From positions 62,001 to 126,000 of the forward strand of contig NZ_CANLWM010000008.1 of the NCBI RefSeq assembly GCF_947494875.1: a DNA stretch of 64,000 bases, written 5' to 3'. The translations under genes and the position numbers were made by a program. Each line of letters starts with the position of its first letter. The stretch's first letter is position 1. The stretch comes from an uncultured Williamsia sp. Lineage in GTDB: Bacteria; Actinomycetota; Actinomycetes; Mycobacteriales; Mycobacteriaceae. The notes beneath the pieces are model-generated. The model was not told the origin of the DNA. It did no database searches and saw nothing but the letters and a program-made list of their open reading frames with translations. Of this stretch, positions 26,826 through 48,998 are shown one piece after another.

Positions 26826-27347
26826 GTGACGCCCCGCGTCCTGTTCGTCTGCACCGGCAACATCTGCCGGTCGCCGATGGCCGAATACCTGCTACGACAC
26901 CGCCTTCGCGACCACCCCGACGCGGCGCAGGTCAGCAGCGCAGGCGTGGCGGCCCTCGTCGATCACCCGGTGCACCCGTTGACCGCGGAGGTCCTCGCCG
27001 ACCGCGGCATCGCGACCGACGGGTTCGCGGCGCGCTACCTCACCCCGGCGATGCTGGCCGACGCCGACATCGTGCTGGGCATGTCCCGCGAGCACCGCGA
27101 CGCGGCGACCACGAAGGCGCCGGTGCGGTGGAAGCGGATCGCTGTGGCCCGGGAGTTCGACGAGGCGATCGTGGCCGGGACCGCTGATCTCGCGGCGACC
27201 CGATTCCCCGGGGACCGCAACCGCCCTGAACTCGACATCGCCGACCCGATGGGTCGCCCGCGCGCGGACTTCGACCGCGTCGCGAGTGAACTGGGCCCGC
27301 TCGTCGAGCGTCTCGCCGACTGGCTGATCGGGCTCCGGCGTCAGTAG
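26826..27347 (+). CDS. Low-molecular-weight protein-tyrosine phosphatase
   Basis: A 173-residue LMW-PTP. The catalytic loop VCTGNICRS (Cys about 9, Arg about 15) opens the protein and the general-acid region is in DIADPMGRP near 137-145. Such phosphatases dephosphorylate BY-kinases and sugar transferases in exopolysaccharide systems. An initiating sugar transferase gene overlaps this stop tail to tail, and a BY-kinase gene is encoded at 55.3 kb, so a Wzb-like role is inferred. It follows the enoyl-reductase-like gene by 5 nt. Confidence 0.9.
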   Translation: MTPRVLFVCTGNICRSPMAEYLLRHRLRDHPDAAQVSSAGVAALVDHPVHPLTAEVLADRGIATDGFAARYLTPAMLADADIVLGMSREHRDAATTKAPVRWKRIAVAREFDEAIVAGTADLAATRFPGDRNRPELDIADPMGRPRADFDRVASELGPLVERLADWLIGLRRQ

Positions 27348-28846
27348 GCCCCGCGGCTCGACACCACGGTCCGCACGGTGCGCCAGAGGATCGCGAGATC
27401 CTGTGCGATGGACCAGTTCTCGACGTAGCTGAGATCGAGCCGGACCGACTCCTCCCAGTTCAGGTCGGAGCGGCCGGACACCTGCCACAGCCCGGTGATA
27501 CCAGGACGCACCAGCATGCGGCGGGCGATGGGGCCGGTGTAGCGCTGGACCTCCGACGGCAGCGGCGGCCGCGGCCCGACGAGGCTCATCGACCCGCCGA
27601 GCACGTTGAACAGCTGCGGTAGCTCGTCGAGGCTGTAGCGGCGCAGGAACTTCCCGACGCGGGTGACGCGGGGATCGTCGCGCAGCTTGAACAGCAGTCC
27701 GGCGCCCTCGTTCTTCGCCTGCAGGTCAGCCAGTCTCGCGTCGGCGTCGACACACATCGACCGGAACTTCCACATGGAGAACGGCTCGTTGTTCAGCCCG
27801 ATCCGCTGGGCGCGGTAGAACACCGGCCCGGGCGAGTCGAGTTTGACCGCGATCGCGCACGCGATGAGGACGGGCGCGGCGACCAGCAGCGCGCCGAGCG
27901 CGCCGCACCGGTCGACAGTGGCCTTCATGATGCGGTTGGCGCCCTGGTAGGTCGGCTTCTCGACGTGCAGCAGGGGTAGGCCGGCGACAGGCCGCACCAG
28001 CATGCGCGGACCGGCGACGTCGATCACACCGGGGTCGACCACCATGTCGACGTGCAGACCCTCGAGCTGCCAGGACAATTCGCGCATCGCCGAGTGGCCG
28101 AGGACCTCGGCCGAGGTGACCGCGACCGTCGTCGCCCGTGATGCGACCACGGCGTCGCCGGCATCGGCGAACTCCCCGAGGACCGGCACACGATGGTTGC
28201 CGATGGTGATCTCGGTGCGCATCCCGGGACTGGGGAGGCACACACCGACGACCTCGAAGCCCAACTCGGGGTTGCGATTCAGGTGGGCGATCAGCTGACG
28301 CGCGGACCGCTCGCCGCCGATGACGAGTACGTGGTCGAGGCAGGCGCGGCGACGCCGGGCAGCCTTGAGGTTGACGCGCCAGAGGAAGTGCGACAGCAGC
28401 AGTCCGAACGTGCCCAGTGGCAGAGCCAGCGCGATGAAACCTCGCGCGATGTTCAGCTTGAAGAGCAAGTCGACGATAGCCAGGAGACCGAACAGAGTGA
28501 CGCTGGCACTGACCACGCGGCTGAACTCGGTGGGCCCTGCCCCGATGATGCGCAGATCCGCCACCCGCATGATGTTCAGAAGCACGAACCACAAGCCGGC
28601 GATCGCCGCCGCGACGAAGACCGCCGGGATCTCAAGGCGCGCGACGGGGATCATCAACTCCGTGCCGAACCGCGCGAGCTCTGCAGCTACGACCGCCACC
28701 ACGACGACGACGGCGTCGGTGAAGAGGAGTCTGCGGCGGTAGAGATCCGCCCAGGTGGACAACCGCTCCCGGGTCCGCGGGCGAACCACCCGGCGTGGGG
28801 AGAGACGACCGACCGACCTGGTCCGCGATTCCGTTTCCGCGGTCAT
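27341..28846 (-). CDS. Exopolysaccharide initiating sugar-phosphate transferase (polyprenyl glycosylphosphotransferase)
   Basis: A 501-residue WbaP/CpsE-type enzyme. Four N-terminal membrane segments (about residues 40-140) and a Rossmann-like CoA-binding-type domain (DHVLVIGGERSARQLI) precede a fifth membrane helix. The catalytic C-terminal domain has SPGPVFYRAQRIG, FSMWKFRSM, the KFLRRYSLDELPQLFNVL signature, SLVGPRPPLP and RPGITGLWQVSGRS. It transfers a sugar phosphate onto undecaprenyl phosphate to start repeat-unit synthesis. The ATG at 28846 has a G-rich ribosome site. It probably primes the polymer built by the 39-64 kb locus. Confidence 0.93.
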   Translation of the reverse strand: MTAETESRTRSVGRLSPRRVVRPRTRERLSTWADLYRRRLLFTDAVVVVVAVVAAELARFGTELMIPVARLEIPAVFVAAAIAGLWFVLLNIMRVADLRIIGAGPTEFSRVVSASVTLFGLLAIVDLLFKLNIARGFIALALPLGTFGLLLSHFLWRVNLKAARRRRACLDHVLVIGGERSARQLIAHLNRNPELGFEVVGVCLPSPGMRTEITIGNHRVPVLGEFADAGDAVVASRATTVAVTSAEVLGHSAMRELSWQLEGLHVDMVVDPGVIDVAGPRMLVRPVAGLPLLHVEKPTYQGANRIMKATVDRCGALGALLVAAPVLIACAIAVKLDSPGPVFYRAQRIGLNNEPFSMWKFRSMCVDADARLADLQAKNEGAGLLFKLRDDPRVTRVGKFLRRYSLDELPQLFNVLGGSMSLVGPRPPLPSEVQRYTGPIARRMLVRPGITGLWQVSGRSDLNWEESVRLDLSYVENWSIAQDLAILWRTVRTVVSSRGAY

Positions 28847-28872
28847 GTGTTCCCCCCCGCCCGGCACCGCGG

Positions 28873-28931
28873 GCGTTACCAATAACGCGAACTCTAGCGA
28901 AAATTAATGCCGCTAAAGTCGTTAATGCCGC
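28873..28931 (-). promoter_or_regulatory. AT-rich promoter region of the initiating sugar transferase with repeats
   Basis: Upstream of the sugar transferase lie an inverted repeat GCGTTA-CCAA-TAACGC (28873-28888), a TAGAGT -10-like hexamer on the minus strand (28891-28896), and a direct repeat of TTAATGCCGC (28904-28913 and 28922-28931). The stretch is much less GC-rich than its surroundings. Regulatory function is inferred. Confidence 0.45.
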
Positions 28932-31173: not shown

Positions 31174-31716
31174 GTGGCGCGCACCATCGGACGGGCTCTG
31201 GCGGGCGGCCTCGTGATGCTGATGCTGGCTGTTCTCGGCGGTCTGCCGCTGTACGTCTTCCCCGCAGCTGCACAAAGCCCACGATCCGTCGACGTCATCA
31301 TGGTCCTCGGCGGCCGGCAGGACGGGCGGGAGCAGTTCGCGATCCGACTCGCCGAACAGGGATTCGCCAGGACGGTCCTCGTCTCTGACCCGTACACGCG
31401 TCCCGATCCCTATATGGAGGCGGTCTGCGATGTTCCGCATCGAGTCCGCGTCATCTGTTTCGACCCACAGCCGCGCACGACGCGAGGGGAGGCTCGCTTC
31501 CTTCGCGACGAGGCTAAGATGAATGGCTGGAACTCGGCGATGGTGGTCACATTCAGCCCGCACATCGCTCGGAGCGACTACATCGTGAGCCGTTGCTTCA
31601 CAGGCGATCTCGTCATGGTCGATTATCGGGAGAGGCTCTCGATCACCTACTGGGCGTGGATGTACCTCTACCAGACAGCAGGTTTCGTGCGGGCCTTCTT
31701 GCAGGTCGGTTGCTGA
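31174..31716 (+). CDS. YdcF/SanA-like DUF218 protein, copy 1
   Basis: A 180-residue protein with an N-terminal membrane anchor (about residues 7-30) and an extracytoplasmic DUF218 domain: VDVIMVLGGRQDGREQFAIRLAEQG, ICFDPQPRTTRGEARFLRDEA, and the ending YQTAGFVRAFLQVGC. DUF218 proteins (SanA, ElyC, YdcF) are linked to envelope or polysaccharide metabolism, but their chemistry is unclear. The next gene is a close paralogue. TAGTCT (31162-31167) ends 6 nt before the GTG, so the transcript may be leaderless. Confidence 0.8.
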   Translation: MARTIGRALAGGLVMLMLAVLGGLPLYVFPAAAQSPRSVDVIMVLGGRQDGREQFAIRLAEQGFARTVLVSDPYTRPDPYMEAVCDVPHRVRVICFDPQPRTTRGEARFLRDEAKMNGWNSAMVVTFSPHIARSDYIVSRCFTGDLVMVDYRERLSITYWAWMYLYQTAGFVRAFLQVGC

Positions 31717-31763: not shown

Positions 31764-32303
31764 ATGCGCGTGTTGCGACGGACCGTTCTCGTCTCAGTTG
31801 TGGTCGTCGTCTTCCTCGCCCTCGCCGGCCTTCCTCTGTACGTGTACCCCGCCACGGCGGGAAAGCCCCACAAGGCCGACGCAATAGTTGTTCTCGGAGG
31901 CCTTCAGGACGGACGCGAGTACTACGCATTGTCCCTCGCTCAGCAGGGCTTCGCGCCGACTGTCTTTGTGTCGAACCCCTACAACAGCCCGACCGCCTAC
32001 ATCCGATCGGTCTGCGACAAGCCACACGGCGTGGAGGTGATCTGTTTCGACCCCTCGCCACGAACCACGCGCGGCGAAGCGCGGTCTGTCCGTCAGGAGG
32101 CGGCACGTCGCGGCTGGAAGTCGATTCTCGTAGTGACGAACACCCCCCACGTGGTGCGCGCGGGCTACATCGTCGGCCGCTGTTTCTCAGGACAGGTCAC
32201 CATGCTCGACTTCCGGACGCACCTGTCCGTGCCATATAGGGCCTGGATGTACGCCTACCAGACCGCGGGCTTTGTGCGAGCGTGGCTGCAGGGAGGCTGC
32301 TGA
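31764..32303 (+). CDS. YdcF/SanA-like DUF218 protein, copy 2
   Basis: A 179-residue paralogue of the preceding protein with the same layout: N-terminal membrane helix ending LPLYVYPATA, ADAIVVLGGLQDGRE, ALSLAQQGF, CFDPSPRTTRGEA and the identical-type end YQTAGFVRAWLQGGC. More than half of the aligned residues look identical, so this is a tandem duplication. It starts 47 nt after copy 1 and is probably co-transcribed. The conserved final Cys in both is notable. The role is unknown; it lies directly upstream of the RiPP cluster. Confidence 0.8.
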   Translation: MRVLRRTVLVSVVVVVFLALAGLPLYVYPATAGKPHKADAIVVLGGLQDGREYYALSLAQQGFAPTVFVSNPYNSPTAYIRSVCDKPHGVEVICFDPSPRTTRGEARSVRQEAARRGWKSILVVTNTPHVVRAGYIVGRCFSGQVTMLDFRTHLSVPYRAWMYAYQTAGFVRAWLQGGC

Positions 32304-32477: not shown

Positions 32478-32771
32478 GTGTCACGAACGGTGTCGGTCGA
32501 CGGTCTCGACATCACGTGGACGGAGTCGGACACGGGCTATGTGATCCTCGACCTGGCCGGGTCGCAGTACTACTCCATCAACGACTCGGCCGCGTCGATC
32601 TGGCCGCTCATCACGGAGGGCTCAGACGAGGAAGCACTCGCGACCTCGTTGGCCGACAAGTGGGAGATCCCAGTCGAGACCGCGCGCGCTGACGTGGCGG
32701 CATTGCTCAACCACCTCGCCGAGCGGGGACTGGTGCGGCTGGGTTCCGGCTCCGCCGCAGACGCGGGGTGA
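32478..32771 (+). CDS. RRE/PqqD-like protein of a lasso-type RiPP cluster (B1)
   Basis: A 97-residue PqqD-like RiPP recognition element. The pattern SRTVSVDGLDITWTESDTGYVILDLAGSQYYSINDSAASIW, then VETARADVAALLNHLAERGLV, is the winged-helix RRE seen in standalone lasso B1 proteins. It should bind the precursor leader and deliver it to the B2 protease encoded 0.9 kb downstream. I chose the GTG at 32478 because GAGGGG (32466-32471) precedes it at ideal spacing; a GTG at 32460 is the alternative. It is the first gene of the operon and lies 25 nt before the kinase gene. Confidence 0.87.
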   Translation: MSRTVSVDGLDITWTESDTGYVILDLAGSQYYSINDSAASIWPLITEGSDEEALATSLADKWEIPVETARADVAALLNHLAERGLVRLGSGSAADAG

Positions 32772-32796
32772 CGCCTCAGATGAGTGAGAACGAAAG

Positions 32797-33648
32797 ATGA
32801 CGTTCGGGGCATATGGACTCCGTTTGCCCGACGTCTGCGAGGACGACCTCGTCGCCGACGTCCCGGCTACCTGGCCGCAGTGGTCTGTCGTTCGCATTGA
32901 TGATCCCGAACGAGGCCAGGTGACCGCCCACGTCGATGAAGAGACCGCCCTGATTCCTCATCTTCCCCGAGGACATTCCGAGATCGACCGTCGGACGCGC
33001 TCGACGACCATCGTCAACGCGCAACGCGGCGACCATGCGATGGCGCATCCGCTGCTGGCGTCGACGGCGATCGTGACCGCCGACTGGTCGGGGCGCGTCG
33101 CCCTGCATGGCGGGGCGTTCGTCGCTCCGGACGGACGAGCGTGGGGCGTTCTCGGTGATCGCGGCGCCGGCAAGAGTTCGCTTGTCGGCTGGTGCGTCAA
33201 GAACGGCCTGCCCGTCATCACCGACGACATCGTCGTCACGGACGGCGCGCAGGTGTTGGCTGGGCCGCGCTGCCTCGATCTTCGAGCCGGCGCCGCAAAG
33301 CATTTCGGCCTGGGAATCGATATCGGCGTGGTGGGACGACGGCGCCGCTGGCGGGTACGGACCGACATGTGCGAGCCGGCGTATCCCCTGGGTGGATGGA
33401 TCGTCCCTCGTTGGAGTTCAGAGATATGGATCGACGACGCGGCTGTGGCTGATCGCGCCGCAGTCATAAGTCCACACAGGGCAATTTTCGTCCGACAGCA
33501 ACACCCCGTCGCGTGGATGGGCGTGCTCGCCAAGCGGCTGATTCACTTTGCCCGCCCACAATCGTGGGCGCGGATCGATGTGGCGATGGGCGAGTTGATG
33601 AGCGAGATCGCGACTTCCGTGACCGCGCAAGCGGGAGCGACGCATTGA
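32797..33648 (+). CDS. HprK-like kinase of a lasso-type RiPP cluster
   Basis: A 283-residue protein. The P-loop GDRGAGKSS is at about residues 120-128, inside GRAWGVLGDRGAGKSSLVGWC, followed by LPVITDDIVVTDG (Asp about 143-144), the pattern of HPr kinase/phosphorylase-like enzymes. It lacks the N-terminal domain of true HprK and has no HPr partner here. Homologues in some lasso clusters (e.g. paeninodin) phosphorylate the C-terminal serine of the precursor. Both precursors in this cluster end in Pro-Ser, which supports that role. The stop overlaps the B2 start (TTGA). Confidence 0.8.
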   Translation: MTFGAYGLRLPDVCEDDLVADVPATWPQWSVVRIDDPERGQVTAHVDEETALIPHLPRGHSEIDRRTRSTTIVNAQRGDHAMAHPLLASTAIVTADWSGRVALHGGAFVAPDGRAWGVLGDRGAGKSSLVGWCVKNGLPVITDDIVVTDGAQVLAGPRCLDLRAGAAKHFGLGIDIGVVGRRRRWRVRTDMCEPAYPLGGWIVPRWSSEIWIDDAAVADRAAVISPHRAIFVRQQHPVAWMGVLAKRLIHFARPQSWARIDVAMGELMSEIATSVTAQAGATH

Positions 33649-34037
33649 ATCCCGTTCGAGAGACGAAGGCACGTCGTTTCGGTCCCGCGAACATCGCTGC
33701 CGCCGTATGGACGGCGGTCACCTACCCGATCGTCCAGCGGCGACTCAAGCGTGATGGTGTTCGCACGCGATGCCCATCCGCCCCGCATCGACTGCCGTCG
33801 GCGGCGTCGCGCGGGATGGAAGCCGTCCTGCGCCGGACGCGGGCGACATGCCTGGAAAGCGCACTGATCCGACAGGAATGGTGGCGAGCCCACGACCGAC
33901 CAGTGGAGGTCGTGATCGGCGTCGACGCGTCCGACGGCTTCACCGCCCACGCATGGCTCAGTACCGACGACCCTAAGGTCACTGCTGTCTACCGAGAGAT
34001 CCACCGAGTCCCTTCGCGTTTGAAAGGCCCCGTGTGA
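33645..34037 (+). CDS. Lasso-peptide-type B2 leader peptidase (transglutaminase-like)
   Basis: A 130-residue standalone B2 protein. The catalytic Cys is in RATCLESALIRQEWW (about residue 69), and His (about 102) and Asp (about 109) are in TAHAWLSTDD, the conserved C-H-D arrangement of lasso leader proteases. IGVDASDGF precedes the His as usual. I chose the TTG at 33645 (TTGA overlap with the kinase stop, GGGAG upstream), which gives normal family length; the longer frame upstream is inside the kinase gene. It cleaves the leader after RRE-mediated recognition. The stop overlaps the cyclase GTG by 4 nt. Confidence 0.85.
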   Translation: MNPVRETKARRFGPANIAAAVWTAVTYPIVQRRLKRDGVRTRCPSAPHRLPSAASRGMEAVLRRTRATCLESALIRQEWWRAHDRPVEVVIGVDASDGFTAHAWLSTDDPKVTAVYREIHRVPSRLKGPV

Positions 34038-35206
34038 TCACGGTTCCTCCTTCGCCGCTGACCGATCTCGAACTCGCACTCGGATCAGTGATCGGCACAG
34101 ACCCCGGAACACCGGCGATCGCACTCGATGAGTTCGGTCCCGAGACGCCTCGCACCGCGGTCCGCGCCGTCATCCGTGGGGCATTGGAGCATGGGCCGTG
34201 CTTTGTTGCATTCTCAGGGGGCCGTGATTCATCGACGATTCTCGCGATAGCAGTGGACGTCGCGCGCGAGGCCGATCTCGCCTTGCCGATCCCGGTCTCA
34301 AAAATCATGCCGGACCTCCCAAGCGCCGACGAATCAGAATGGCAGGAACTTGTTCTCGATCACCTGGGGGTGACTGAGCGAATCATCATGGAGGTGCACG
34401 CTGGCGACGAAGAGATCTTCGGCCCGGACGGAATCGAAGCCTTGCAACGGATCGGAGTCACGTACCCAGCCGCGGCGAGTTCTGTAGTACGCCTCGCCAG
34501 AGAGACATCGGGCGGCACCCTTCTCACCGGCAGCGGCGGCGACGAGTTGGGCAACGCGGCGAACTCACAGTGGGCGGCGCGTGCGCTTTCGACGGGCACT
34601 GCACCATGGCGGACGAGATTGGCCGCCCGTCTGCCCGTGGCGGCGTCGGCTGCACGGAGGGTCCGAACACTAGCGAAGAAGCCGACTGATTACTTTTTCG
34701 TCTCGCCGTGGCTCACCCGGCGGGCTGATCTCGCTCTCCGCCGCGAGTTGGCGACTCTCGAAGGCGGCCAGTCGATCCGGTGGGATAGACGTATATCAGG
34801 ATTCGCTCGTAGCAAGCACCTGGTCCTGACGACCCGTTCTTTGTCGGCGCTAGCGGCACCCTACGGCGTCGATGTGCTTCATCCGCTGTGGGAGCGCCGG
34901 ACGTTGGCGGCGTTGGCAGCTTCGAGACCGTTTCAGGGTTATCCCACCCGGTCGTCGATTCTCGAAGAACTAGCTGATGGCCTGCTGCCGATTGAGGTCA
35001 CACGCCGGACGACCAAGGCGGACTTCACCGCAACACCATGGGGTCCGGAGGCGGAGAACTTCATCGCTCACTGGGATGGGTCCGGGGTAGATCTTCGTTT
35101 CGTCAATCCGACAATTCTTCATGCGCAATGGCGCCTGCCGCCGGTCGATCGCACCATTTCATCTATTGCCCTGCTGCAAAGTGCGTGGCTCAATTCGCAA
35201 CGATGA
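34034..35206 (+). CDS. Asparagine-synthetase-like lasso cyclase lacking the glutaminase domain
   Basis: A 390-residue protein with the ATP-pyrophosphatase core of asparagine synthetase B. The PP-loop SGGRDSS is at about residues 61-67 and GSGGDELGN at about 166-174. The N-terminal class II glutamine amidotransferase domain of about 200 residues found in typical lasso cyclases (about 600 aa) is absent, and no separate glutaminase gene is present. The enzyme would adenylate a side-chain carboxylate and form a macrolactam. The GTG start overlaps the B2 stop. The coding sequence becomes less GC-rich toward its end. Confidence 0.82.
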   Translation: MITVPPSPLTDLELALGSVIGTDPGTPAIALDEFGPETPRTAVRAVIRGALEHGPCFVAFSGGRDSSTILAIAVDVAREADLALPIPVSKIMPDLPSADESEWQELVLDHLGVTERIIMEVHAGDEEIFGPDGIEALQRIGVTYPAAASSVVRLARETSGGTLLTGSGGDELGNAANSQWAARALSTGTAPWRTRLAARLPVAASAARRVRTLAKKPTDYFFVSPWLTRRADLALRRELATLEGGQSIRWDRRISGFARSKHLVLTTRSLSALAAPYGVDVLHPLWERRTLAALAASRPFQGYPTRSSILEELADGLLPIEVTRRTTKADFTATPWGPEAENFIAHWDGSGVDLRFVNPTILHAQWRLPPVDRTISSIALLQSAWLNSQR

Positions 35207-35226
35207 CTAACAATGCCGCATCGTTG
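35198..35226 (+). promoter_or_regulatory. Hairpin at the end of the cyclase gene
   Basis: CAACGATG (35198-35205) and CATCGTTG (35219-35226) form an 8-bp stem with a 13-nt loop spanning the cyclase stop codon. It may attenuate read-through or stabilise the 3' end. No U-tract follows. Confidence 0.35.
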
Positions 35227-35241
35227 GAAATTCAGCCATTT

Positions 35242-35247
35242 TATAGT
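35242..35247 (+). promoter_or_regulatory. Candidate -10 element of a precursor-gene promoter
   Basis: TATAGT lies in an unusually AT-rich stretch (35225-35250), 78 nt upstream of the first precursor ATG. It is a good actinobacterial -10. No convincing -35 is seen at 17 nt. A separate promoter would let precursors be made in excess of the enzymes. Confidence 0.4.
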
Positions 35248-35324
35248 TCAGTCGGAGTACTGCGCTGAGGTTGATGAGCGGGTACGCTTCCAGCATTCCT
35301 ACAACAGACCCAGGAGACAAACAT

Positions 35325-35462
35325 ATGCCTTACACCGCACCCACCCTGACGGAGCTCGGCTCGCTGGCCGGCCTCACCCTCGACAAGATCAACAAGGAAG
35401 GCCGCAAGATCGACGGCATGGGTGGTCGACTGGCCGGCAACGTCATCATCATCCCGTCTTGA
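35325..35462 (+). CDS. Lasso-type RiPP precursor peptide 1
   Basis: A 45-residue peptide starting at the ATG 35325 with AGGAG (35312-35316) 8 nt upstream. Residues 3-18 show the lasso leader signature Y-x2-P-x-L-x3-GSL-x2-LT (Tyr3, Pro6, Leu8, Gly12, Thr18). If Thr18 is the -2 residue, the core is residues 20-45 (26 aa): it starts with Asp, and its acidic residues fall at positions 1, 6 and 11. No Gly1 and no Asp/Glu at 7-9 are present, so a canonical 7-9-residue ring is not possible at this cut site. It shares GRKID with the GRGSD of precursor 2, and ends NVIIIPS. It is translationally coupled to precursor 2. Confidence 0.82.
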   Translation: MPYTAPTLTELGSLAGLTLDKINKEGRKIDGMGGRLAGNVIIIPS

Positions 35463-35584
35463 TCGGCGCGTACACCCGGCCGACGGTGATCGATTTGGGT
35501 TCGCTGCAAGAATTGACCCTCAAGGTCGGCCGAGGCAGCGACGCGTTCACTGAGAACGGTAGCGTTGTCGCCGTTCCGTCCTGA
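35459..35584 (+). CDS. Lasso-type RiPP precursor peptide 2
   Basis: A 41-residue peptide starting at a TTG that overlaps the stop of precursor 1 (TTGA, 4 nt), so it is probably made by re-initiation; no separate ribosome site is visible. Residues 5-20 repeat the leader signature (Tyr5, Pro8, LGSL from 13, Thr20). With Thr20 as -2, the core is residues 22-41 (20 aa): it starts with Lys and has Asp at position 7 (GRGSD) and Glu at 11. It ends VVAVPS, matching the Pro-Ser end of precursor 1. Ring chemistry is uncertain. Confidence 0.78.
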   Translation: MIGAYTRPTVIDLGSLQELTLKVGRGSDAFTENGSVVAVPS

Positions 35585-35593
35585 GCCCTTACA

Positions 35594-35630
35594 CAACGGC
35601 CTGACCACATCAAACGTGGTCAGGCCGTTG
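35594..35630 (+). terminator. Hairpin terminator after the precursor genes
   Basis: A perfect 15-bp inverted repeat (35594-35608 and 35616-35630) with a 7-nt loop lies 10 nt after the second precursor stop and just before the ABC transporter gene. No U-tract follows. It probably protects or terminates the precursor mRNA and lowers expression of the exporter. Confidence 0.75.
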
Positions 35631-35653
35631 CTGTGTTCGCGTGCCATCGTCAG

Positions 35654-37456
35654 GTGACCAATTTGCAGACGAGCAATGAGACCGGCCGCAGCCGGCTGAG
35701 AGCTGGTTCGGTCGGATCGGTGGCAAGCGCTTCCCGGTATGCGCTACGCCTGTGCGTGGAATCTGATCGCCGCGGCACCTATGTCATCGGCGTGGGACAG
35801 GTGATGGGTGCGGTTGCGACTGCAATGCTCGTCGTGTCTGTCAAATACGTCGCCGAAGCTCTTCTGTCCGCGGGAAAATCGTCTCTCTGGCCGATCGTGA
35901 TCCTCGCGGCATCGGCTTCCCTGATCTCAGGGCTCGCAGCAATCCGAACCCAGCAGGAGCGGCGACTGGCCGAGGCAGTCAGCCAACGAGTCTGGCGAGA
36001 AGTTCTTGCAGTCGTCGCTCGGGTTCCGCTGATCCGGTTCGAGGAACGCGGCTTCATCACGCGCTATGCACAGGTCGAGCGCGGCGGGCTGATGCAACCG
36101 CTTCCCATGACACGATCCCTGTTCTCACTCGTCGGGTCCGTCTTGTCGACCGCCCTTCTCGTAGCAGCAGTTGCGACGATAGCTCCGATTTTGATACCGA
36201 TCCTTGCACTGGGCGCAATTCCGGCGATCGTCGTCTCCCGGCTGGCGAGCCGACACGAGTTCGCTTTTCAGAAAACTGCTACAGCAACGTATATCGGACG
36301 CGAACGCCTCCGACGCGTCCTGTCCGAGCGGGAATTCGCCGCCGAGGTACGCGCATACGACGCCGCCGACCACTTCATGCACATCCACGACCGCCTTGAC
36401 GCAAGCTTCCTCGACATGCTTCTCGTCCACGTGCGACGGCGGTCGTGGCTCGCCTTCTTCCAGATCGTGGGTACGACCGTCGCCCTACTCGCCGCACTGA
36501 TCGCAATCGCGATAATGGTTGACAACGGGTCGATCACCCTCGCCTCCGCCGGGGCGGCCGCGGTGGCGGCACGGATGCTCGGTGGTCAGCTGTCGTCTCT
36601 CTACGCTGCCTACAGCGGCCTCATCGAGGCGGCACCGTTCCTGACCCAGCTACGCGAGTTCGTGGTCACACCGGCAGACCCATTGCGGACAGGCGCACCG
36701 ACCGAGTTGAGCGGCGGAATGGCTTTGCGGGACATCAGCTTCACTTACCCACAGAATGAGGGTCCCGCGCTTGACGGTGTCTCAATCGACATCGGCGCGG
36801 GCGAGATCGTCGCACTGGTGGGAGAAAACGGTTCCGGAAAGTCCACCCTCGCAAGCATCGTCGGCGGACTCTTTCGGCCTGATTCAGGGGATGTCCTGTG
36901 GAACGGAGCCCCCATCGAGCCCGATGACATGCGGGCGTCCGTAGCGACACTCTTCCAGGATTTCGGACGGTTCAACCTCTCGGTCCGAGACAACATTGCT
37001 GTGTCCGGCTGGTCGAAAACGGACGACTGGCCAATCCGAGCCGCGGCGCGACGCGCAAACTTCCTCCGCACGGCGGAGGGTCTCTCGGACGGGTTCGACA
37101 CGGTCCTGGGTCGCGACATCGACACCGGCGTCGACCTGTCCGGCGGGCAATGGCAGCGGCTCGCCTTGGCACGTGCGTTGTACAAAGACAGCGCGCTTGT
37201 GGTTCTCGACGAGCCGAGCGCCGCCCTCGACCCTCGCGCGGAAAGCGAACTGTTCGAAGACGTCAAAGCGACACTGGACGGCCGAGCCGCGCTCATCATT
37301 TCCCATCGATTCGCCAACGTGCGACTCGCCGACCGGATCTATGTGCTCCACGAGGGGCGTGTCGTGGAGAGTGGGACGCATGACGAGCTGATGCAGACCG
37401 GCGGACGCTACTCCGAGTTGTTCCGCTTGCAGTCGATGAATTACATGTCGCAGTAA
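35654..37456 (+). CDS. ABC exporter (fused membrane and ATPase domains) of the RiPP cluster
   Basis: A 600-residue half-transporter. About six membrane helices (residues about 35-320) are followed by a nucleotide-binding domain: Walker A GENGSGKST near 390, the signature LSGGQWQRLALARAL near 495, Walker B ALVVLDEPSAALDP near 515 and the H-loop IISHR near 549. It should export the mature peptide (the D function in lasso clusters). No N-terminal peptidase domain is present, consistent with a separate B2 protease. The start is uncertain: GTG 35654 is used, GTG 35633 lies next to the hairpin terminator. Confidence 0.9.
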   Translation: MTNLQTSNETGRSRLRAGSVGSVASASRYALRLCVESDRRGTYVIGVGQVMGAVATAMLVVSVKYVAEALLSAGKSSLWPIVILAASASLISGLAAIRTQQERRLAEAVSQRVWREVLAVVARVPLIRFEERGFITRYAQVERGGLMQPLPMTRSLFSLVGSVLSTALLVAAVATIAPILIPILALGAIPAIVVSRLASRHEFAFQKTATATYIGRERLRRVLSEREFAAEVRAYDAADHFMHIHDRLDASFLDMLLVHVRRRSWLAFFQIVGTTVALLAALIAIAIMVDNGSITLASAGAAAVAARMLGGQLSSLYAAYSGLIEAAPFLTQLREFVVTPADPLRTGAPTELSGGMALRDISFTYPQNEGPALDGVSIDIGAGEIVALVGENGSGKSTLASIVGGLFRPDSGDVLWNGAPIEPDDMRASVATLFQDFGRFNLSVRDNIAVSGWSKTDDWPIRAAARRANFLRTAEGLSDGFDTVLGRDIDTGVDLSGGQWQRLALARALYKDSALVVLDEPSAALDPRAESELFEDVKATLDGRAALIISHRFANVRLADRIYVLHEGRVVESGTHDELMQTGGRYSELFRLQSMNYMSQ

Positions 37457-37555
37457 TTTCCAATCGTTGACTTTCTTGTGGATTGAGCACTTCATCCGGT
37501 GCCGTGATTTACTCGTGAAAATTCGTTCTCCGGGGGGATGAACAGGAGTCCCCTA

Positions 37556-39649
37556 ATGCGACGCAATGCCGATCGATCGGCAGGAACTTCACGGCGGACA
37601 TTCCTCGTCGGCGTCCTCGGCGCAGCAGCGGCGACCGCGCTCGCTGGCATCCGCGGGATCGGGCCCGCTCGCAGCGCGCCGACCGCGGGGCCGGCGCTCT
37701 CCTTGCTCTCGGACTTCACCGCGTGCCTCCCGCCTTCGCAGGTCACGCAGAAATGCGCTGCGGCAGGGTCTCTCACGCTGTACTGGTTCCCCGGGGTCGC
37801 GCAAAGCGGAAATCTGTCCACTCGCATCTACGTCGACGACGCGCTGGTCGCCACGACAGCCGGTGCGTTGCGCACACTCACGGGTTTGACCATCTCGCGA
37901 CCGATATCGGTCCGGCTCACCAGCGTCGACACGAGCACCGGCGTCGAATCCGAGTCCACCGCGCAGCTTCTTCGTTCGGTAGCTGCAGCAGACTCCGCAT
38001 CGACTTCTCGACTGCAATGGCTGTCGGCCGAGAACACCTTCGGCGGAGCCCAATTGAGGTGGCCGAAACCCACGACAGCTCCGAGCTCCTTCGTCGTCGT
38101 GGACGCGGACAGCGGACGGGAACTCGTCACCGTCGATGGTGGGGAAACCAGCGCACTGGTGACCGGCCTGAGCACGACTCAACCCACTCGGCTCAGACTC
38201 GAGGGTCGTGGCGGTCCACAGACCATCACGCCACAGAATTCGGTAGTCGTCCTGCCCTACACGCGCGTTGTACCGACTGATCGCTCGAGTCCCGCGGCGC
38301 CGACCATCACGGTCACCGCGCTCAACCGAGGAATCCGAATCAGCGTCAGTCAGCCCGGCGCCGCGGGTGTGGCCGGATGGAATGTGTTCTCCTCCGGCAA
38401 GTTCTTGGGGCAGGTGCGGACGTCTCCGGCAGAGATCAGCGGGATGACCGCAGGCAACCCGAAGACCATCACCGCTGTTGCCGTGTCGACATGGGGGTAC
38501 AGCTCCCCACTGTCGAATGGCGTGCGGGTGACGCCTTCAGGATCGGGCACGCGAGCATCTGAGACCCCGACAACGCCGTTCCGTGTGGGCACCGACGGGA
38601 CGATTCTCGACCCCTCGGGTTCCACGTTCATCCCGCATGGCGCGAACGTGAACGGGTCGGACTTCATCTGGTCCGAGAGGACGACAGGGATGCAGGCCGC
38701 TGCGCGCGACGCGTGGATGTGGTCGGCACTGCGACTCAACTGCGGCATGCGCGACGGCGGTGCACTGTCCGGCGGCTACCTCTACTTCACGAACAACCAA
38801 GTCGATGCGATCGTCTCCGGTTACACCGCCGCCGGGATCGTGGTGATGATCGATCAGCACTCTCACCTCGGCGGCGGAGCAGGCCAGAACCTACCGACTG
38901 TTGCCGGGAGCGCCGGCGACCCGACCGGACGCTCCGCCGAGGAGGCGATCACCGATTGGTGGGTGGCCGTCGCGGATCGGTACCGCACCAACCCACGAGC
39001 CTGGTTCAACCTGGTGAACGAACCCGGGACCGACCGTTCGGCACTCGAGGCTCAGTATCGACGAATGCTCGCGCGCATTAGAGCGATAGCTCCAACCTCC
39101 GTGGTAGTCCTTGATGCAGCGGCGTTCGCCAATGACATCCCCACGAACACGACGATGGGTTCAGGACCTGTCGACCCCGCCCTCTCATTCGTCCTCTCCA
39201 ACGGACCGGCCCTCATGGACGATTTCGGCCCCGCAGCAGGTTACGGGCCGATCGTCTTCTCGATCCACTTCTACGCTCGGTGGACGGTGAACTGGGGACC
39301 GGGTGGGATGATCACCGACGACCAGCTGGCGACGCGGCTGAGGGACTACATCCAACGCTGTAAAGCGGCAGGTCTACCCCTACTTGTCGGAGAGCTCGGC
39401 GTCGAGGCGTACGCGCGCACCGCAGATTCGGCGTGCGTTCGGGTGGCCCTGTACGAGAAGGGCACGGTGGGCGGTCAGACAACTGGCGTCTTGCGCGAAC
39501 AGGGCATCGGATTCTTCCCATGGCATGCATCGACACTGAGCGGAATGCCCATCACAGCCGACAGAACGCTCTGGTCGTCGGTCACCGGCCGGTCCGACAC
39601 CAGTCCGATGCCGGACACAGGAAACGGGTTGTGGGACGCCACCCACTGA
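37556..39649 (+). CDS. Tat-exported GH5-like glycoside hydrolase, copy 1
   Basis: A 697-residue exported protein. The N-terminus has a twin-arginine signal (SRRTFLVGVLGAAAA) and a cleavage region near residue 45. Residues about 50-340 are fibronectin-III-like beta domains. The C-terminal about 350 residues are a GH5 (cellulase-type) TIM barrel with the acid/base Glu in NLVNEP (about 487) and the nucleophile Glu in LLVGELGVE (about 612). It probably trims or degrades the locus polysaccharide. I chose the ATG at 37556 because AGGAG precedes it; ATG 37538 is the alternative. A close paralogue lies at 45997. Confidence 0.85.
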   Translation: MRRNADRSAGTSRRTFLVGVLGAAAATALAGIRGIGPARSAPTAGPALSLLSDFTACLPPSQVTQKCAAAGSLTLYWFPGVAQSGNLSTRIYVDDALVATTAGALRTLTGLTISRPISVRLTSVDTSTGVESESTAQLLRSVAAADSASTSRLQWLSAENTFGGAQLRWPKPTTAPSSFVVVDADSGRELVTVDGGETSALVTGLSTTQPTRLRLEGRGGPQTITPQNSVVVLPYTRVVPTDRSSPAAPTITVTALNRGIRISVSQPGAAGVAGWNVFSSGKFLGQVRTSPAEISGMTAGNPKTITAVAVSTWGYSSPLSNGVRVTPSGSGTRASETPTTPFRVGTDGTILDPSGSTFIPHGANVNGSDFIWSERTTGMQAAARDAWMWSALRLNCGMRDGGALSGGYLYFTNNQVDAIVSGYTAAGIVVMIDQHSHLGGGAGQNLPTVAGSAGDPTGRSAEEAITDWWVAVADRYRTNPRAWFNLVNEPGTDRSALEAQYRRMLARIRAIAPTSVVVLDAAAFANDIPTNTTMGSGPVDPALSFVLSNGPALMDDFGPAAGYGPIVFSIHFYARWTVNWGPGGMITDDQLATRLRDYIQRCKAAGLPLLVGELGVEAYARTADSACVRVALYEKGTVGGQTTGVLREQGIGFFPWHASTLSGMPITADRTLWSSVTGRSDTSPMPDTGNGLWDATH

Positions 39650-39664: not shown

Positions 39665-40822
39665 TCAGCGGGACCACCGGGTCACGCCGCCGCCCTCCGC
39701 ACTTGCTACCCGAAGCCACTCTTCACGATCTTCCTCGGTCCCACCGGGGCTGTGGAGGACGGTGCGGTCGACGTCAGCCTCGGATCGACCACGAAGGCGC
39801 CCCTCTCCCGCGTCGATCAGGTTCTCGACCATTGCAAGGACGCTGGTCGTCAGCGAATCACGCGTCGCACTGAACACGGCACGCCCGGTGACCCGGCCGG
39901 AGAGCGAACTCTCCACGGGGGCATACCGGCCGGTGGTGGCGCAGAGGCACATCCACAGGTTCTCGGGGCGGCTCAGGAACCGCTGGGGATTGCCGATCGC
40001 GACTCCGAGCGAATCCTCGACACGCTGAATCATCACTGCCAGTTGAAGCGCGGCATCATGCTCGCGCGCCCTCACGAAAAGCTCCGCCAGCGGTGGATTC
40101 AGCGTCCGGAACGCGAAAGCGAAATCCAGCATCCATTTGGCTCTGTGCCCACCCGAGAGGACGGCGTGGGTCGCCAGGAATATCAGCCCATCGAGATCGT
40201 CCATGATCGGGACGGTGAGGCCCGAGAGGTTCGTCTCTCGGCGGCGGTTCAGCACCGCACGCATGTTTACGCCACAGCGACGGCGGATCGAGGGTGACGA
40301 ATAGAAATGCCAATGGAGATCGAGGAGCGTCGACCCGTAGACAAGCGACACCTCTCCCTGTCGCTTGCGCGCGATCATCCCCCAGTTCCGATCGAGCATC
40401 TTCGCGCCCGCGTCGCACAGCGCATCGATGGCGCCGCCGACGTCGTCAGGATGGACGACGATGTCGATGTCGTTGTACTGCCGAGTCCACTCGGCGGGAT
40501 AGAAACGTGCGGCGATGACGGGTCCCTTCACCACCATCCACCGCACATCGGCATCGTTGAGTGCGCGCTTCACGGCAAACAAGATCTGACGTCTCTCCAC
40601 CACACGGAGCTGGGCCTCGCCGACTTCACGTGAGGTCTGAACCGACCTCCTCGAACCCACATCGCGCTGCGCAAACCTGTAGAGAAGCAGCAGGTCGGCA
40701 AGGGCTGCTGCGTCATCGACGCCGTCCGCGGGCTTCCGATCATGAGCAATCGATCGCAAGGCTTGGCGGAGCACCGTGACCTCAGCGGCGGACTGCGGCG
40801 TTCGTTCTCCACAGCCATTCAC
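39665..40822 (-). CDS. NTP_transf_5 nucleotidyltransferase family protein
   Basis: A 385-residue protein of the uncharacterised nucleotidyltransferase family (PF14907). The central motifs are WMVVKGPVIAARFYPAEWTRQYNDIDIVV, with the acidic pair NDIDIVV as the metal site, followed by the HWHF segment. Members occur in lasso-peptide and polysaccharide clusters; the substrate is unknown. Its GTG start overlaps the flippase stop by 4 nt (GTGA), so it is translated in the flippase operon. Being 2 kb from the RiPP exporter, it might modify the peptide or a sugar. It is convergent with the GH5 gene. Confidence 0.75.
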   Translation of the reverse strand: MNGCGERTPQSAAEVTVLRQALRSIAHDRKPADGVDDAAALADLLLLYRFAQRDVGSRRSVQTSREVGEAQLRVVERRQILFAVKRALNDADVRWMVVKGPVIAARFYPAEWTRQYNDIDIVVHPDDVGGAIDALCDAGAKMLDRNWGMIARKRQGEVSLVYGSTLLDLHWHFYSSPSIRRRCGVNMRAVLNRRRETNLSGLTVPIMDDLDGLIFLATHAVLSGGHRAKWMLDFAFAFRTLNPPLAELFVRAREHDAALQLAVMIQRVEDSLGVAIGNPQRFLSRPENLWMCLCATTGRYAPVESSLSGRVTGRAVFSATRDSLTTSVLAMVENLIDAGEGRLRGRSEADVDRTVLHSPGGTEEDREEWLRVASAEGGGVTRWSR

Positions 40823-42306
40823 GCCCGATTCCGGTCCTCTGCCTCTGAGGTCCCCCGTCGGACCGCGACCGCGACCATGGCCACCAAATCAAAGAGCTCA
40901 CGTCGCAGCCGACGAATACTCAGCAGCAGGACCGCAGCCACCGCCAGCTCGACGACGACGGCGATACCGGCACTGGCCCACGGACTCGCTGATACCACTG
41001 TGCTGGAGACGAATTGCGCCACCGCGTAGGCGACACCCCATACCACCAGGGTCGGACCGAAAGAACTGACCACATCACTCATCCTGATGAAGCTGCCGCG
41101 CGAGATCCACCAGACGCTCAGGAGTACCGAGCCGAATATGCTGACGACGTAGGTGACCGCGACCGCGTAGACACTGTGCGCCGACGCGATGAACACGGCG
41201 ACACCGGTCGCGACCTGAGTGGTGAGCGCGGCGACGATCTGCCTCTTCATCTGATTCAACGCAGTTGCTGCCAATTCCACCAGTCCGAACAGCCCGCGAA
41301 CAGTCCCTGCGAGCGCGAGCACGACGAGCAGGTGCCCTGCGGCACTCCATTGCGCGCCGTAGACGAGCTGAACTGCCGGCACCGCAAGCAGGCTGAGGAT
41401 GGTGAACATGGGAGACAGGACGTGGCCCATCGCCGAGACGCCTCTTCTGAGCGCCGACCGAAAGGCGGTCTCGTCGTCCTGCAACCGAGACAGCACCGGA
41501 AGAGCAACCGCATTCACCGCGGCGATGAGCTGCTGCTCGACCAGGCTGACGACCTGCGAAGCGCGGTTGTAGAGACCGGTTTCGGAGGCACCGTGGAATC
41601 GGCCGATCGCAATCACGTCCAGGCTGCGGGAGAAGAACGTCGTCGCCTGGATGAACGTGATCTGTGCACCCTGCACCATCAGCTCGGACACCTCGGAGAA
41701 CGGGGCAGGTCGCGTCGGTCTGAAGCGTGAGGCGACGACCAGGGACGACGCCCACCAGACGCTCACCACGATGCTGCCGATCACCAACGACCAGTAGTTG
41801 AGACCGGCCAGAGCGCATCCCAGGGTCACACCGAGCTGGAGGATCCCTCCCAGGACCTGCGTGATTCCGAGGACGCCGAAACGGAGGTCGCGGAGGAGAT
41901 CAGCCCGGGCCTGACCGCCGAGGGAGGTGATCACGAAGGTGACCGACAACGCCCGGGCGACATCCGCCACCTCTGGTCGGTTGTAGAAGGCGGCGAGCAG
42001 CGGAGCGATCAACAACATCGTGAGTGCGAGCGTCAACCCGAGGAGGACGTTCAGCCCGAACAAGCTGGTCTGTTGCGGACGCGTGAGCTCCCTGGCCCGC
42101 ACCGCAGCCGAGGTCAACCCCAGATCTTGGAAGAGAACCACGAATCCGCTGATCGCGGTGACCATCGCCACGATGCCGAAGTCCTCCGGCGAGAGGAGGC
42201 GGGCCAGCAACACCGAGGACAACAACATCGTCACGGTGTTGCCCCACCGCGATGCCAGGGTGACGACGACGCCCCGAGTGGCGGTGCGACCGAGGGCTGC
42301 GGTCAA
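40819..42306 (-). CDS. Lipopolysaccharide/oligosaccharide flippase (Wzx-like), copy 1
   Basis: A 495-residue protein with about 12-14 membrane segments and the polysaccharide-transporter signature near its start (GVVVTLASRWGNTVTMLLSSVLLARLLSPEDFGIVAMV). It should flip lipid-linked repeat units outward. I chose the TTG at 42306, 8 nt after the glycosyltransferase stop, with GAGGG upstream; the longer frame covers the glycosyltransferase gene. It forms an operon with that glycosyltransferase and the downstream nucleotidyltransferase. Confidence 0.88.
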   Translation of the reverse strand: MTAALGRTATRGVVVTLASRWGNTVTMLLSSVLLARLLSPEDFGIVAMVTAISGFVVLFQDLGLTSAAVRARELTRPQQTSLFGLNVLLGLTLALTMLLIAPLLAAFYNRPEVADVARALSVTFVITSLGGQARADLLRDLRFGVLGITQVLGGILQLGVTLGCALAGLNYWSLVIGSIVVSVWWASSLVVASRFRPTRPAPFSEVSELMVQGAQITFIQATTFFSRSLDVIAIGRFHGASETGLYNRASQVVSLVEQQLIAAVNAVALPVLSRLQDDETAFRSALRRGVSAMGHVLSPMFTILSLLAVPAVQLVYGAQWSAAGHLLVVLALAGTVRGLFGLVELAATALNQMKRQIVAALTTQVATGVAVFIASAHSVYAVAVTYVVSIFGSVLLSVWWISRGSFIRMSDVVSSFGPTLVVWGVAYAVAQFVSSTVVSASPWASAGIAVVVELAVAAVLLLSIRRLRRELFDLVAMVAVAVRRGTSEAEDRNRA

Positions 42307-42313
42307 TGCGCCC

Positions 42314-43483
42314 TCATCTCGAAGCCGTCGACCGGGTGACTCCCCCGTCCTCCACAAGAGCGTGGAGCAGCCTCTCGGCAACGCGCGGCCACGTGAAATG
42401 AGCGGACCGCGTGAACGCCGCAGAGCCATGGGAAGCAGCGAATTCAGGATCCGCGAATCGCTCCATGGAGGCCACGATCTGCGCGTCATCGAAGGGGTCG
42501 ACGACAAGTCCCCCATCCCCCACGAAATCCCTGGATCCGCCGCGAGACCCGGCGATGCACCCGACTCCAGAAGCCGCTGCCTCCACAAGGACCACACCAC
42601 CTGGTTCGTGGATCGACGGCATCACGAAGCACGTGGCTTTTTCGTACAGCCCGGCAAGCGTGGCACGGTCCCCGGCGTCGTCGCGCGAGAGCATTCCATG
42701 GGTGCGGACACCCGGCTCGTCGAGCACTGGGTGCCCTCCTACGACGTCGAGCGTCGCGTCGGGGAAGCGGTCACGAACTGACCCGAAGGCTCTGACAACC
42801 CGCGGACCGTTCTTGCGCTGCCAATCCTTGCCGACAAAGAGAAAACGCGGTGTCGACCAGTCGCGCGCCTTGTTCCTTCGCTCTTCATGTGTACCAGCAC
42901 CGACGACCACCACTTTCGACTCAGGGATTCCGTAGTCGGATACGACGGAATCCGCGGCCCATTGCGTGGTCATGCAGCACTTCACGGCCCTGGAGTAGAC
43001 GGAAACCTGTTGCCGAAGACGATATTGGCGATCGGTTTCGCGCATGGCCCTCCACGCCGGATACCCGAGATCAATTGCCTGCTTGACGGTCATGTCGTCG
43101 TAGATCACGTAGGGAACATCAATGCCCACGGTGTAACCGCTTCCCAGAGCAATCACGCCGGTCACATCGCGGCGAACGGTCCGCGCACGCGCTGCGAGAC
43201 TGCGCGTGATCGACGTTGCCCGGCCGAGGTGGGCTCCCTGATAGGCCGCTTTGAACTTCCCCTGAGAGGGCCACTCTCGTCTCTGCGCCAGGTGGGTGAT
43301 GCCATCCAGTGCAGCGAGCGCGCGGTCGACGTTCGTCGGCATCGTCGCCTTCAAAGCAAAAGCCTCGACGCCGAGGGACCGCAACCCGCTGAGAACGCCG
43401 TACGGTGTGCCCGATCGCGCAGTTCGATCCTCAGCATCTCCCGTGAAAGCGACACCGAAGACTGCAGACACACCAAACTCCAT
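42314..43483 (-). CDS. GT4-type glycosyltransferase
   Basis: A 389-residue GT-B glycosyltransferase. Its C-terminal half has FLFVGKDWQRKNGPRVVRAF, VVGGHP, and the EX7E region SIHEPGGVVLVEAAASGVGCIAGSRGG, typical of GT4. The N-terminal half is divergent (GTPYGVLSGLRSLGVEAFALK). No signal or membrane helix is present. The start ATG at 43483 is chosen; upstream GTG codons are possible. It is the first gene of the minus-strand flippase operon and is divergent from the next glycosyltransferase. The sugar specificity is unknown. Confidence 0.83.
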   Translation of the reverse strand: MEFGVSAVFGVAFTGDAEDRTARSGTPYGVLSGLRSLGVEAFALKATMPTNVDRALAALDGITHLAQRREWPSQGKFKAAYQGAHLGRATSITRSLAARARTVRRDVTGVIALGSGYTVGIDVPYVIYDDMTVKQAIDLGYPAWRAMRETDRQYRLRQQVSVYSRAVKCCMTTQWAADSVVSDYGIPESKVVVVGAGTHEERRNKARDWSTPRFLFVGKDWQRKNGPRVVRAFGSVRDRFPDATLDVVGGHPVLDEPGVRTHGMLSRDDAGDRATLAGLYEKATCFVMPSIHEPGGVVLVEAAASGVGCIAGSRGGSRDFVGDGGLVVDPFDDAQIVASMERFADPEFAASHGSAAFTRSAHFTWPRVAERLLHALVEDGGVTRSTASR

Positions 43484-43677: not shown

Positions 43678-43733
43678 AGGAGACCTGATGTCACCGCATA
43701 CTGATGCCAATCGGACAGGGGGACGGTCAAGAG

Positions 43734-48111: not shown

Positions 48112-48998
48112 ACGCTGCCGACCACTCAGAGTCGTTCCTGCCAGTCGCGTCTATCATCATCCCAGCACACAACGAGGACACGGTGATCGGACGATGCCTC
48201 GACCGCATCCGGTCGGATTCGCAGGCGAGCTTCGAGGTCGTCGTGGTCGTCAATGGCTCTTCCGACCGCACCGGCGACGTCGCCGTCGACCACTTGCGGC
48301 ATCACCCGGCAGCGGTGGTGGAGGTCATCCCGACTGCGTCGAAGATCGCGGCTCTGCGCCGCGGGGACGAGATCGCGCAGACATACCCGAGGGTGTACCT
48401 CGATGCCGACATCCAGGTGTCGGCGCGCGCACTGACAGATCTCGCCCGCGTGCTCGCCGACCACGCTGAGCCGGCGGTCGGAGCTCCGCGTATGGTCGTT
48501 GACACCCGCGGATGCGGTTGGGCGCTGAGGGCATATCACAACGTGTGGACGCGACTCCCCTACGCCGAGGACGGGGTCATCGGCGCGGGGATCTATGCGG
48601 TCAACGAAGCGGGTGGAGCCGTCAAGGGCACTTTCCCCGACGTGATGAACGACGATGCGTACGTTCGCGGTGTCTTCGGTCCGGACCAGCGATTGACGAC
48701 TCCGGGGGTGTTCATCGTCGCAGCGCCACGAACGGTCGCCGCGCTGGTCCGGCGCCGCGCGCGGGTACACATCGGGAACGAGGCCGTCGAAGAGATGGTG
48801 ACGGGTTCCGGACGTTCCACCACGCGTTCGGCTCTGCTCCGCATCGTCCGGAGGCGGGAAGCGACGGTCGGCGAAGTCGCTGCCTACGTGTGGATCACGG
48901 CAGCCGCTTTCGCCGTGGCCCGAGTTCGACGCCTTCGCGGAACACACGCGCAGTGGTCGACAGACGTCACCTCACGAGTCCTGCAGGAGCACGAATGA
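48108..48998 (+). CDS. GT2-family glycosyltransferase
   Basis: A 296-residue GT-A protein. It starts ASIIIPAHNEDTVIGRCLDRI, has VVVNGSSDRTGDVA and the metal-binding VYLDADIQVS (DxD) near residues 96-101, and a C-terminal hydrophobic segment (about 262-278). It transfers a sugar from a nucleotide donor. The stop and start overlaps (ATGA both sides) place it within the operon. The sugar is unknown. Confidence 0.85.
   Translation: MNAADHSESFLPVASIIIPAHNEDTVIGRCLDRIRSDSQASFEVVVVVNGSSDRTGDVAVDHLRHHPAAVVEVIPTASKIAALRRGDEIAQTYPRVYLDADIQVSARALTDLARVLADHAEPAVGAPRMVVDTRGCGWALRAYHNVWTRLPYAEDGVIGAGIYAVNEAGGAVKGTFPDVMNDDAYVRGVFGPDQRLTTPGVFIVAAPRTVAALVRRRARVHIGNEAVEEMVTGSGRSTTRSALLRIVRRREATVGEVAAYVWITAAAFAVARVRRLRGTHAQWSTDVTSRVLQEHE

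Follow-up and report, generated by a model that had tools for sequence, protein, structure and literature searches.

Which amine closes the ring in a lasso-type gene cluster whose two precursors hold their candidate ring acid at different distances from the leader? This question is raised by a stretch of 64,000 nucleotides from an uncultured Williamsia sp. (assembly GCF_947494875.1, contig NZ_CANLWM010000008.1, positions 62,001 to 126,000), hereafter the window. A cluster at 32478–37456 of the window encodes a recognition element (RRE) for ribosomally synthesized and post-translationally modified peptides (RiPPs), an HprK-like kinase, a B2 leader peptidase, a short asparagine-synthetase-like cyclase, two precursors, and an ATP-binding cassette (ABC) exporter. 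The lasso rule, as given in PMC10368454, places an Asp or Glu at core position 7–9, where it closes a ring with the N-terminal amine. The reading favored here, with a probability of about 0.5, is that the cluster yields two phosphorylated macrolactam peptides, in which the lasso-type cyclase would join the epsilon-amine of a Lys to the side chain of an Asp located six residues downstream.

A Constant Distance Between Lysine and Aspartate

Cores were aligned on the leader (Tyr at −17, Pro at −14, and Thr at −2), following the numbering of PMC10368454. Precursor 1 (35325–35462; 45 residues, preceded by an AGGAG ribosome site) consists of the leader YTAPTLTELGSLAGLTL and the core DKINKEGRKIDGMGGRLAGNVIIIPS, with acids at positions 1, 6, and 11, a Lys5, and a C-terminal Ser. 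Precursor 2 (35459–35584; 41 residues, TTG start) holds the core KVGRGSDAFTENGSVVAVPS, with Lys1, Asp7, and a C-terminal Ser. Precursor 2 scores above the cut-off of 19 for the lasso leader model NF033521 (21.9 bits) and precursor 1 below it (18.7 bits). Both carry a YxxPxL-type leader motif and Thr(−2), and their binding by the RRE encoded alongside is predicted. The distance from Lys to Asp is identical (six) in both, although the Asp is found at position 11 in one and at position 7 in the other, and in a MAFFT alignment both precursors have their K, G, R, and D in register. The initial annotation held that neither precursor fits the usual ring rule, which stands for precursor 1 but not for precursor 2, where Asp7 nominally satisfies it. 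The oddness of the cores had thus been recognized, without the positive rule that the relatives supply, namely a Lys six residues before the Asp.

The precursors of related loci (designated by L and a number) can be sorted into three types. Gene sets of this sort are found repeatedly in Actinobacteria, and in most of them the core is an ordinary lasso one. In the D9-type, an acid is present at core position 7–9 in 42 of 45 precursors, a count that includes many near-identical copies from related genomes and omits two precursors (L046 and one of L096) found under a different leader score; the exceptions (L039 at 1784, L142 at 9403, and L044 at 738) are apparently chance frames or part of another cluster. 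The GG-type (L099, L100, L102, L103, L105, L106, and L107), with mostly Gly-rich cores, has an acid at these positions in 7/7 precursors. The Lys-type comprises 15 precursors from the window and 13 other loci, and in 14 of them the ring-type Asp is preceded by a Lys at a distance of exactly six residues. This rule is followed in the window, in a pair of genomes from one Rhodococcus genus, in Nocardioides, and in further genera, while the same Lys–acid spacing occurs elsewhere in 3/45 D9-type precursors, in 0/7 of the GG-type, and, of the pair L009/L010, in L009. The paired Asp of the Lys-type is located at core positions 7, 9 (four cores), 10 (four), 11 (four), 13, and 15, and across the 15 cores the standard deviation is 0.25 for the Lys–Asp spacing versus 1.81 for the position of the Asp from the leader. 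This slack is illustrated by L007 and L008, in which the distance from leader to Lys differs by two residues and that from Lys to Asp is the same. Thr(−2) is found in all 15 precursors, although it was not part of the score.

Chance was examined by counting, for every offset between 1 and 14, the cores with Lys and an acid that far apart. When the 15 cores were shuffled 20,000 times, no offset equaled the 14/15 observed at offset six. With nine representatives, all bearing the spacing and hence a favorable choice, 0 of 20,000 shuffles equaled the observed count; with eight representatives including L043, which lacks it, 2 of 20,000 did, and none when residues 1–16 alone were shuffled. A chance origin of the spacing was thus ruled out by these shuffles.

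Some loci stand apart. L098 is Lys-type by its cyclase, and its precursor was not found on a contig of 7.3 kb; precursors were also looked for at L104 and L108–L111, and none was found. The D9-type cores of L031, L032, and L050 also hold a Lys3 six residues ahead of Asp9, and are possible intermediates between ring types. The stretches of L092, L093, L094, and L096 each contain two different short cyclases close together and two precursors.

A Short Cyclase Widespread Among Actinobacteria

The cyclase (34034–35206; 390 residues, with an SGGRDSS PP-loop) is recognizable as an asparagine-synthetase-like macrolactam cyclase through PF00733 (8e-13), which covers the synthetase part of the family only, without the amidotransferase part. 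Its match to the lasso cyclase model starts at 247 of 668, and it scores 27 bits against the cut-off of 525 for NF033535. A profile of twelve cyclase relatives matches the beta-lactam synthetase 1jgt from residue 216, whereas a single-protein search of the PDB with the window cyclase gave three weak unrelated matches and nothing else. The B2 gene fills the DNA immediately upstream, and consequently no N-terminal amidotransferase domain is encoded, in agreement with the truncated cyclase proposed in the initial annotation.

Among 401 genomes of the family, 5 matched the window cyclase, as did 20 among 394 genomes of the class; with the profile A2 as query, 22 of 348 genomes of the order matched, each count taking in the window's own genome. 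Among the relatives, open frames measured from stop to stop are shorter than 500 residues in 4/4 cases in the family, 20/20 in the class, and 19/26 in the order. The remaining seven of the order span 515–878 residues, and the upstream parts of two of them, L089 and L091, read as noise. A truncation peculiar to the window was accordingly discarded, and the short cyclase is, judging by these frames, a widespread actinobacterial form, not particular to this genome. The SGGRDSS PP-loop and K328 are invariant among the aligned relatives.

In a tree of 59 cyclases, the Lys-type enzymes fall into two blocks with support of 99/98 each, alongside the pair L098/L101 (98/95), and the joining order of these blocks and the GG-type is poorly resolved. 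A single clade for the 15 Lys-type cyclases is not rejected by the approximately unbiased test (p 0.40), which is no proof of such a clade.

Probable Phosphorylation of the C-terminal Serine

The kinase (32797–33648; 283 residues) is identified by its identity to relatives and by the aligned catalytic motif H104-K126-D143-D144. Scanning it against Pfam and NCBIfam gave nothing over the cut-off, with HprK_rel_A (TIGR04352) at an E-value of 0.16 only, and a kinase profile searched against the PDB gave one weak ATP-binding protein. It is 38–46% identical to the kinases of L007, L008, and L043, and a kinase search of genome contigs led to two loci, in Rhodococcus sp. IEGM 1381 (NZ_JASHKQ010000001.1) and Nocardioides mangrovicus. 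PadeK-type kinases are described in PMC9266682 as requiring His-Lys-Asp-Asp and targeting the C-terminal Ser of the precursor. The motif is intact in the window and in the kinases of 14 other Lys-type loci; Ser is the C-terminal residue of 13/15 Lys-type cores and penultimate in the other two. Both window precursors terminate in Ser, and together with the four catalytic residues they show a paeninodin-like motif. Phosphorylation, already suspected in the initial annotation, is thus likely from motif and terminal residue. A strict covariation between the C-terminal Ser and an intact kinase was rejected, as the GG-type has the Ser in 0/7 cores and the motif in 7/7 kinases, which speaks against a strict Ser rule.

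Proposed Mechanism and Alternative Explanations

In the mechanism proposed here, the RRE would bind the YxxPxL/V leader and present it to the kinase and B2, as is known for these families. The kinase would phosphorylate the C-terminal Ser, as suggested by its motif and the conserved Ser, and B2 would cleave after the residue that follows Thr(−2). The short cyclase is then predicted to adenylate the conserved Asp, which a Lys located six residues upstream would attack through its epsilon-amine, a new step suggested by the spacing. The resulting rings would be constant in size (Lys5–Asp11 in precursor 1 and Lys1–Asp7 in precursor 2), with 0 to 8 N-terminal residues left as a free arm outside the ring. 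A nucleotidyltransferase-like enzyme encoded nearby may decorate the phosphate, and the ABC protein would export the peptide. More speculatively, given the locus setting described below, the product could act at, or be joined to, a cell-surface polysaccharide; attachment is a guess prompted by this location and by the addition of hexoses to phosphorylated Ser by PsmN, reported in PMC9266682. A ring fixed between Lys and Asp would account for the invariance of the Lys, its constant distance from the Asp, and its variable distance from the leader, whereas an N-terminal ring would account for none of them. Among the loci compared, the window is the strongest single case on these predictions, with one cyclase and one B2 facing both Asp7 and Asp11. 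The broader proposal, that a clade of lasso-type cyclases switched its nucleophile from the N-terminus to the Lys side chain and gives rise to phosphorylated Lys–Asp (i,i+6) macrolactam peptides, which would be joined to surface polysaccharide or act on it via the phosphorylated C-terminal Ser, is advanced tentatively.

Several observations weigh against a ring closed by the Lys side chain. At the 80% level, no cyclase column separates the Lys-type (15 rows) from the D9-type (27 rows), so that a new nucleophile is not explained by a residue switch. L043, the sole exception among the Lys-type precursors, has a spacing of seven, while L009 shows six despite a cyclase located elsewhere in the tree, perhaps by chance, being Lys-rich. 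An acid is found at position 7, 8, or 9 in 6/15 Lys-type cores, where an ordinary ring is possible; four of these six have Asp9 together with Gln1, and for a metanodin relative, PMC12670498 describes a predicted ring with Gln in position 1. In addition, the Lys-type was named after inspecting the precursors, several of its members are close kin, and many of the 45 D9-type precursors used as control are nearly identical, so that the counts overstate independence.

The main rival is a shifted cut, by B2 or a second peptidase, directly before the Lys, so that the alpha-amine of this residue closes an ordinary seven-residue lasso (Lys1–Asp7). Such a ring falls in the characterized range of 7–9 residues (PMC13352647), the Lys is already the first core residue of precursor 2, and BsfA offers a known case of cleavage with Ile at −2 of the leader (PMC10368454), an Ile being found two residues before the Lys in precursor 1, L007, L088, and L089. 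However, Thr(−2) is kept at the normal distance from YxxP in 15/15 precursors, which cleavage directly before the Lys would not require, no common motif is seen in the residues ahead of the Lys, and an alpha-amine ring leaves unexplained why the first residue should constantly be Lys. This explanation is regarded as rather unlikely. Less probable is ordinary cleavage followed by N-terminal rings of 7 to 15 residues, perhaps unthreaded. No new nucleophile would be required, and the acids at positions 7–9 in the D9-type and GG-type (42/45 and 7/7) come from related loci with the same set of enzymes; nevertheless, the one cyclase of the window would have to close rings of both 7 and 11 residues, and the fixed Lys–Asp spacing would become a coincidence.

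A comparably small likelihood is given to Lys and Asp being a recognition motif for the kinase, the RRE, or the cyclase, with a product that is linear or cyclized elsewhere, like the linear polyphosphorylated peptides (LPP) of Bacillota. LPP clusters also hold an RRE, an HprK-like kinase, and a nucleotidyltransferase, and linear peptides were inferred by the authors of PMC13381572. They are described as lacking a cyclase, whereas here the PP-loop and K328 are invariant in the relatives and a B2 is encoded in the window as well as in 12/14 other Lys-type loci, the two misses (L098 and L101) being contigs under 7.5 kb. Finally, the cluster could be decaying or non-functional, and its GC content at third codon positions (GC3) of 0.66–0.81, compared to mostly 0.84–0.99 before 29 kb, does suggest an acquired block; yet the frames are open, the catalytic residues intact, the gene overlaps kept, and a strong hairpin is present between precursors and exporter, making decay very improbable. 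The ring between the side chains of Lys and Asp is consequently retained as the preferred explanation. No report of such a ring made by a lasso-type cyclase, nor of these actinobacterial clusters, was found in the open-licence literature among the matches listed, which is weak evidence of absence.

Organization of the Cluster

All genes of the cluster are encoded on the forward strand, and the gene set, positions, and sizes proposed in the initial annotation were confirmed. The RRE (32478–32771; 97 residues, GTG start) is a PqqD-like B1 protein matching PF05402 (2e-18) and scoring 59.7 bits with NF033530 (lasso_PqqD_Strm), under its cut-off of 70. B2 (33645–34037; 130 residues, TTG start, with Cys69 and His102) matches PF13471 (1.4e-10) and exceeds the cut-off of 33 for the lasso B2 model NF033537, with 42.7 bits. 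The exporter (35654–37456) is an MsbA-like protein of 600 residues, or 607 if translated from the GTG at 35633, matching PF00005 (7e-29) and approximately 51% identical to those of L007 and L008. These family-model matches support the assignment of the RRE, B2, cyclase, and exporter to a lasso-type machinery. The proposed overlaps of stop and start codons were likewise found, between the kinase and the TTG of B2 and between B2 and the GTG of the cyclase; a further one joins precursor 1 and the TTG of precursor 2. No ribosome-site match was found for precursor 2 itself, which is therefore probably translationally coupled to precursor 1. A strong hairpin with a 15-bp perfect stem (35594–35630, forward strand; −35.9 kcal/mol, z −6.5) is located between the genes of precursor 2 and the exporter, and a terminator or attenuator allowing an excess of precursor over exporter would fit this arrangement.

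In the whole genome (4.77 Mb), PF13471 and the window cyclase give one match each, both within this cluster. The neighbor counts come from profiles seeded with the window genes. The RRE, cyclase, B2, and kinase are all present in 38 of the 50 stretches examined (window included), so that the set is not due to chance, and the exporter in 32 of the 50. The 12 stretches short of the four genes are L045, L046, L049, L098, L101, L103–L105 (some of them short contigs), and L108–L111, the last four of which were picked up by a kinase match and hold no cyclase of this sort. In seven further loci, all five genes are present in 7/7.

A Nucleotidyltransferase and a Polysaccharide Locus in the Neighborhood

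The cluster limits of the initial annotation hold for the gene set at 32478–37456 but proved too narrow as boundaries, since a nucleotidyltransferase gene and a polysaccharide locus had been overlooked. The nucleotidyltransferase-like protein (39665–40822, reverse strand; 385 residues, PF14907 2.9e-22) corresponds to the "N" gene of phosphoglycosylated lasso clusters. Homologues are found in 14/16 Lys-type loci (L009 included), the two without one being contigs under 7.5 kb, as well as in 7/8 GG loci and 17/33 others.

A Wzx/Wzy-type surface polysaccharide locus surrounds the cluster (27341–28882, 40819–42600, and 43704–63402), comprising an initiating sugar transferase, a Wzx-like flippase, a Wzy-like polymerase, WecG, an acyltransferase, several glycosyltransferases, and two GH5 proteins. 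A homologue of the initiating transferase lies within the stretch in 8/16 Lys-type loci, 11/33 others, and 0/8 GG loci. The association between cluster and polysaccharide locus looks repeated rather than accidental in these neighborhoods, because half of the Lys-type loci have this homologue nearby, although the transferase has three copies in the 4.77-Mb genome of the window. In Bacilli, a group of kinase-bearing lasso clusters is described inside capsular polysaccharide loci (PMC13381572).

Other features of the region were also observed. The two GH5 (cellulase-family) proteins, each about 700 residues long and mutually similar (37538–39649 and 45997–48111), flank the nucleotidyltransferase and flippase genes. 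Tandem DUF218 proteins (31177–31716 and 31764–32303) are encoded immediately upstream of the RRE, and the clusters of L010, L031, and L033 also have DUF218 homologues nearby. Past 29 kb (29178–63976), GC3 falls to mostly 0.70–0.84, like an acquired or variable block. In a plasmid search, no match was obtained for the cyclase, precursor 1 of the window, or the precursor of L101, and the kinase had a single weak match covering 16% of the protein; there is thus no sign of a plasmid-borne family among the matches of these four queries.

Implications

According to PMC10368454, the amine used by lasso cyclases is that of the N-terminus, and the characterized rings have 7 to 9 residues (PMC13352647). 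If the proposed link between this kinase-bearing RiPP cluster and a polysaccharide locus is true, the association described for Bacillota (PMC13381572) would extend to Actinobacteria. A natural clade of cyclases that takes its nucleophile from a Lys side chain would, if true, uncouple the ring from the N-terminus and could spare leader cleavage before ring closure, while providing a compact enzyme of about 390 residues for engineering. The predicted ring is directly checkable by mass and one mutation.

Comparison with Known Systems

Amides between the side chains of Lys and Asp or Glu are known from graspetides such as the microviridins, where they are made by ATP-grasp enzymes. Graspetides are not known to have a B2, RRE, and lasso leader set. 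A Lys epsilon-amine isopeptide within a lasso-type peptide is found in lariocidin B ("class V" lasso), but there it links Lys2 to the carboxyl of Arg17, on top of a normal N-terminal ring (PMC12427821). The LPP clusters share with the window the RRE, kinase, nucleotidyltransferase, exporter, and nearby polysaccharide genes, and differ, as described in PMC13381572, by having no cyclase and an SpI-type peptidase in place of B2. The window, where a cyclase and a B2 are present, does not correspond to this class, although no search aimed at SpI was made.

The bsf cluster of Bradymonas sediminis also combines an RRE, B2, C, D, kinase, and nucleotidyltransferase, and its kinase acts on the precursor. 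However, its predicted ring is Gly1–Asp8, the leader has Ile(−2), and phosphorylation occurs at Ser3 (PMC10368454). The paeninodin and pseudomycoidin-type clusters of Bacillota resemble the window in their discrete RRE, B2, and cyclase, an HprK-like kinase with the H-K-D-D motif, and a C-terminal Ser (PMC9266682), as well as in the nucleotidyltransferase of some members and the polysaccharide-locus siting of a group from Bacilli (PMC13381572). Compared to them, the group of the window is actinobacterial, its cyclase has no N-terminal domain, and its precursors hold the Asp at core positions 7–15 together with a fixed Lys.

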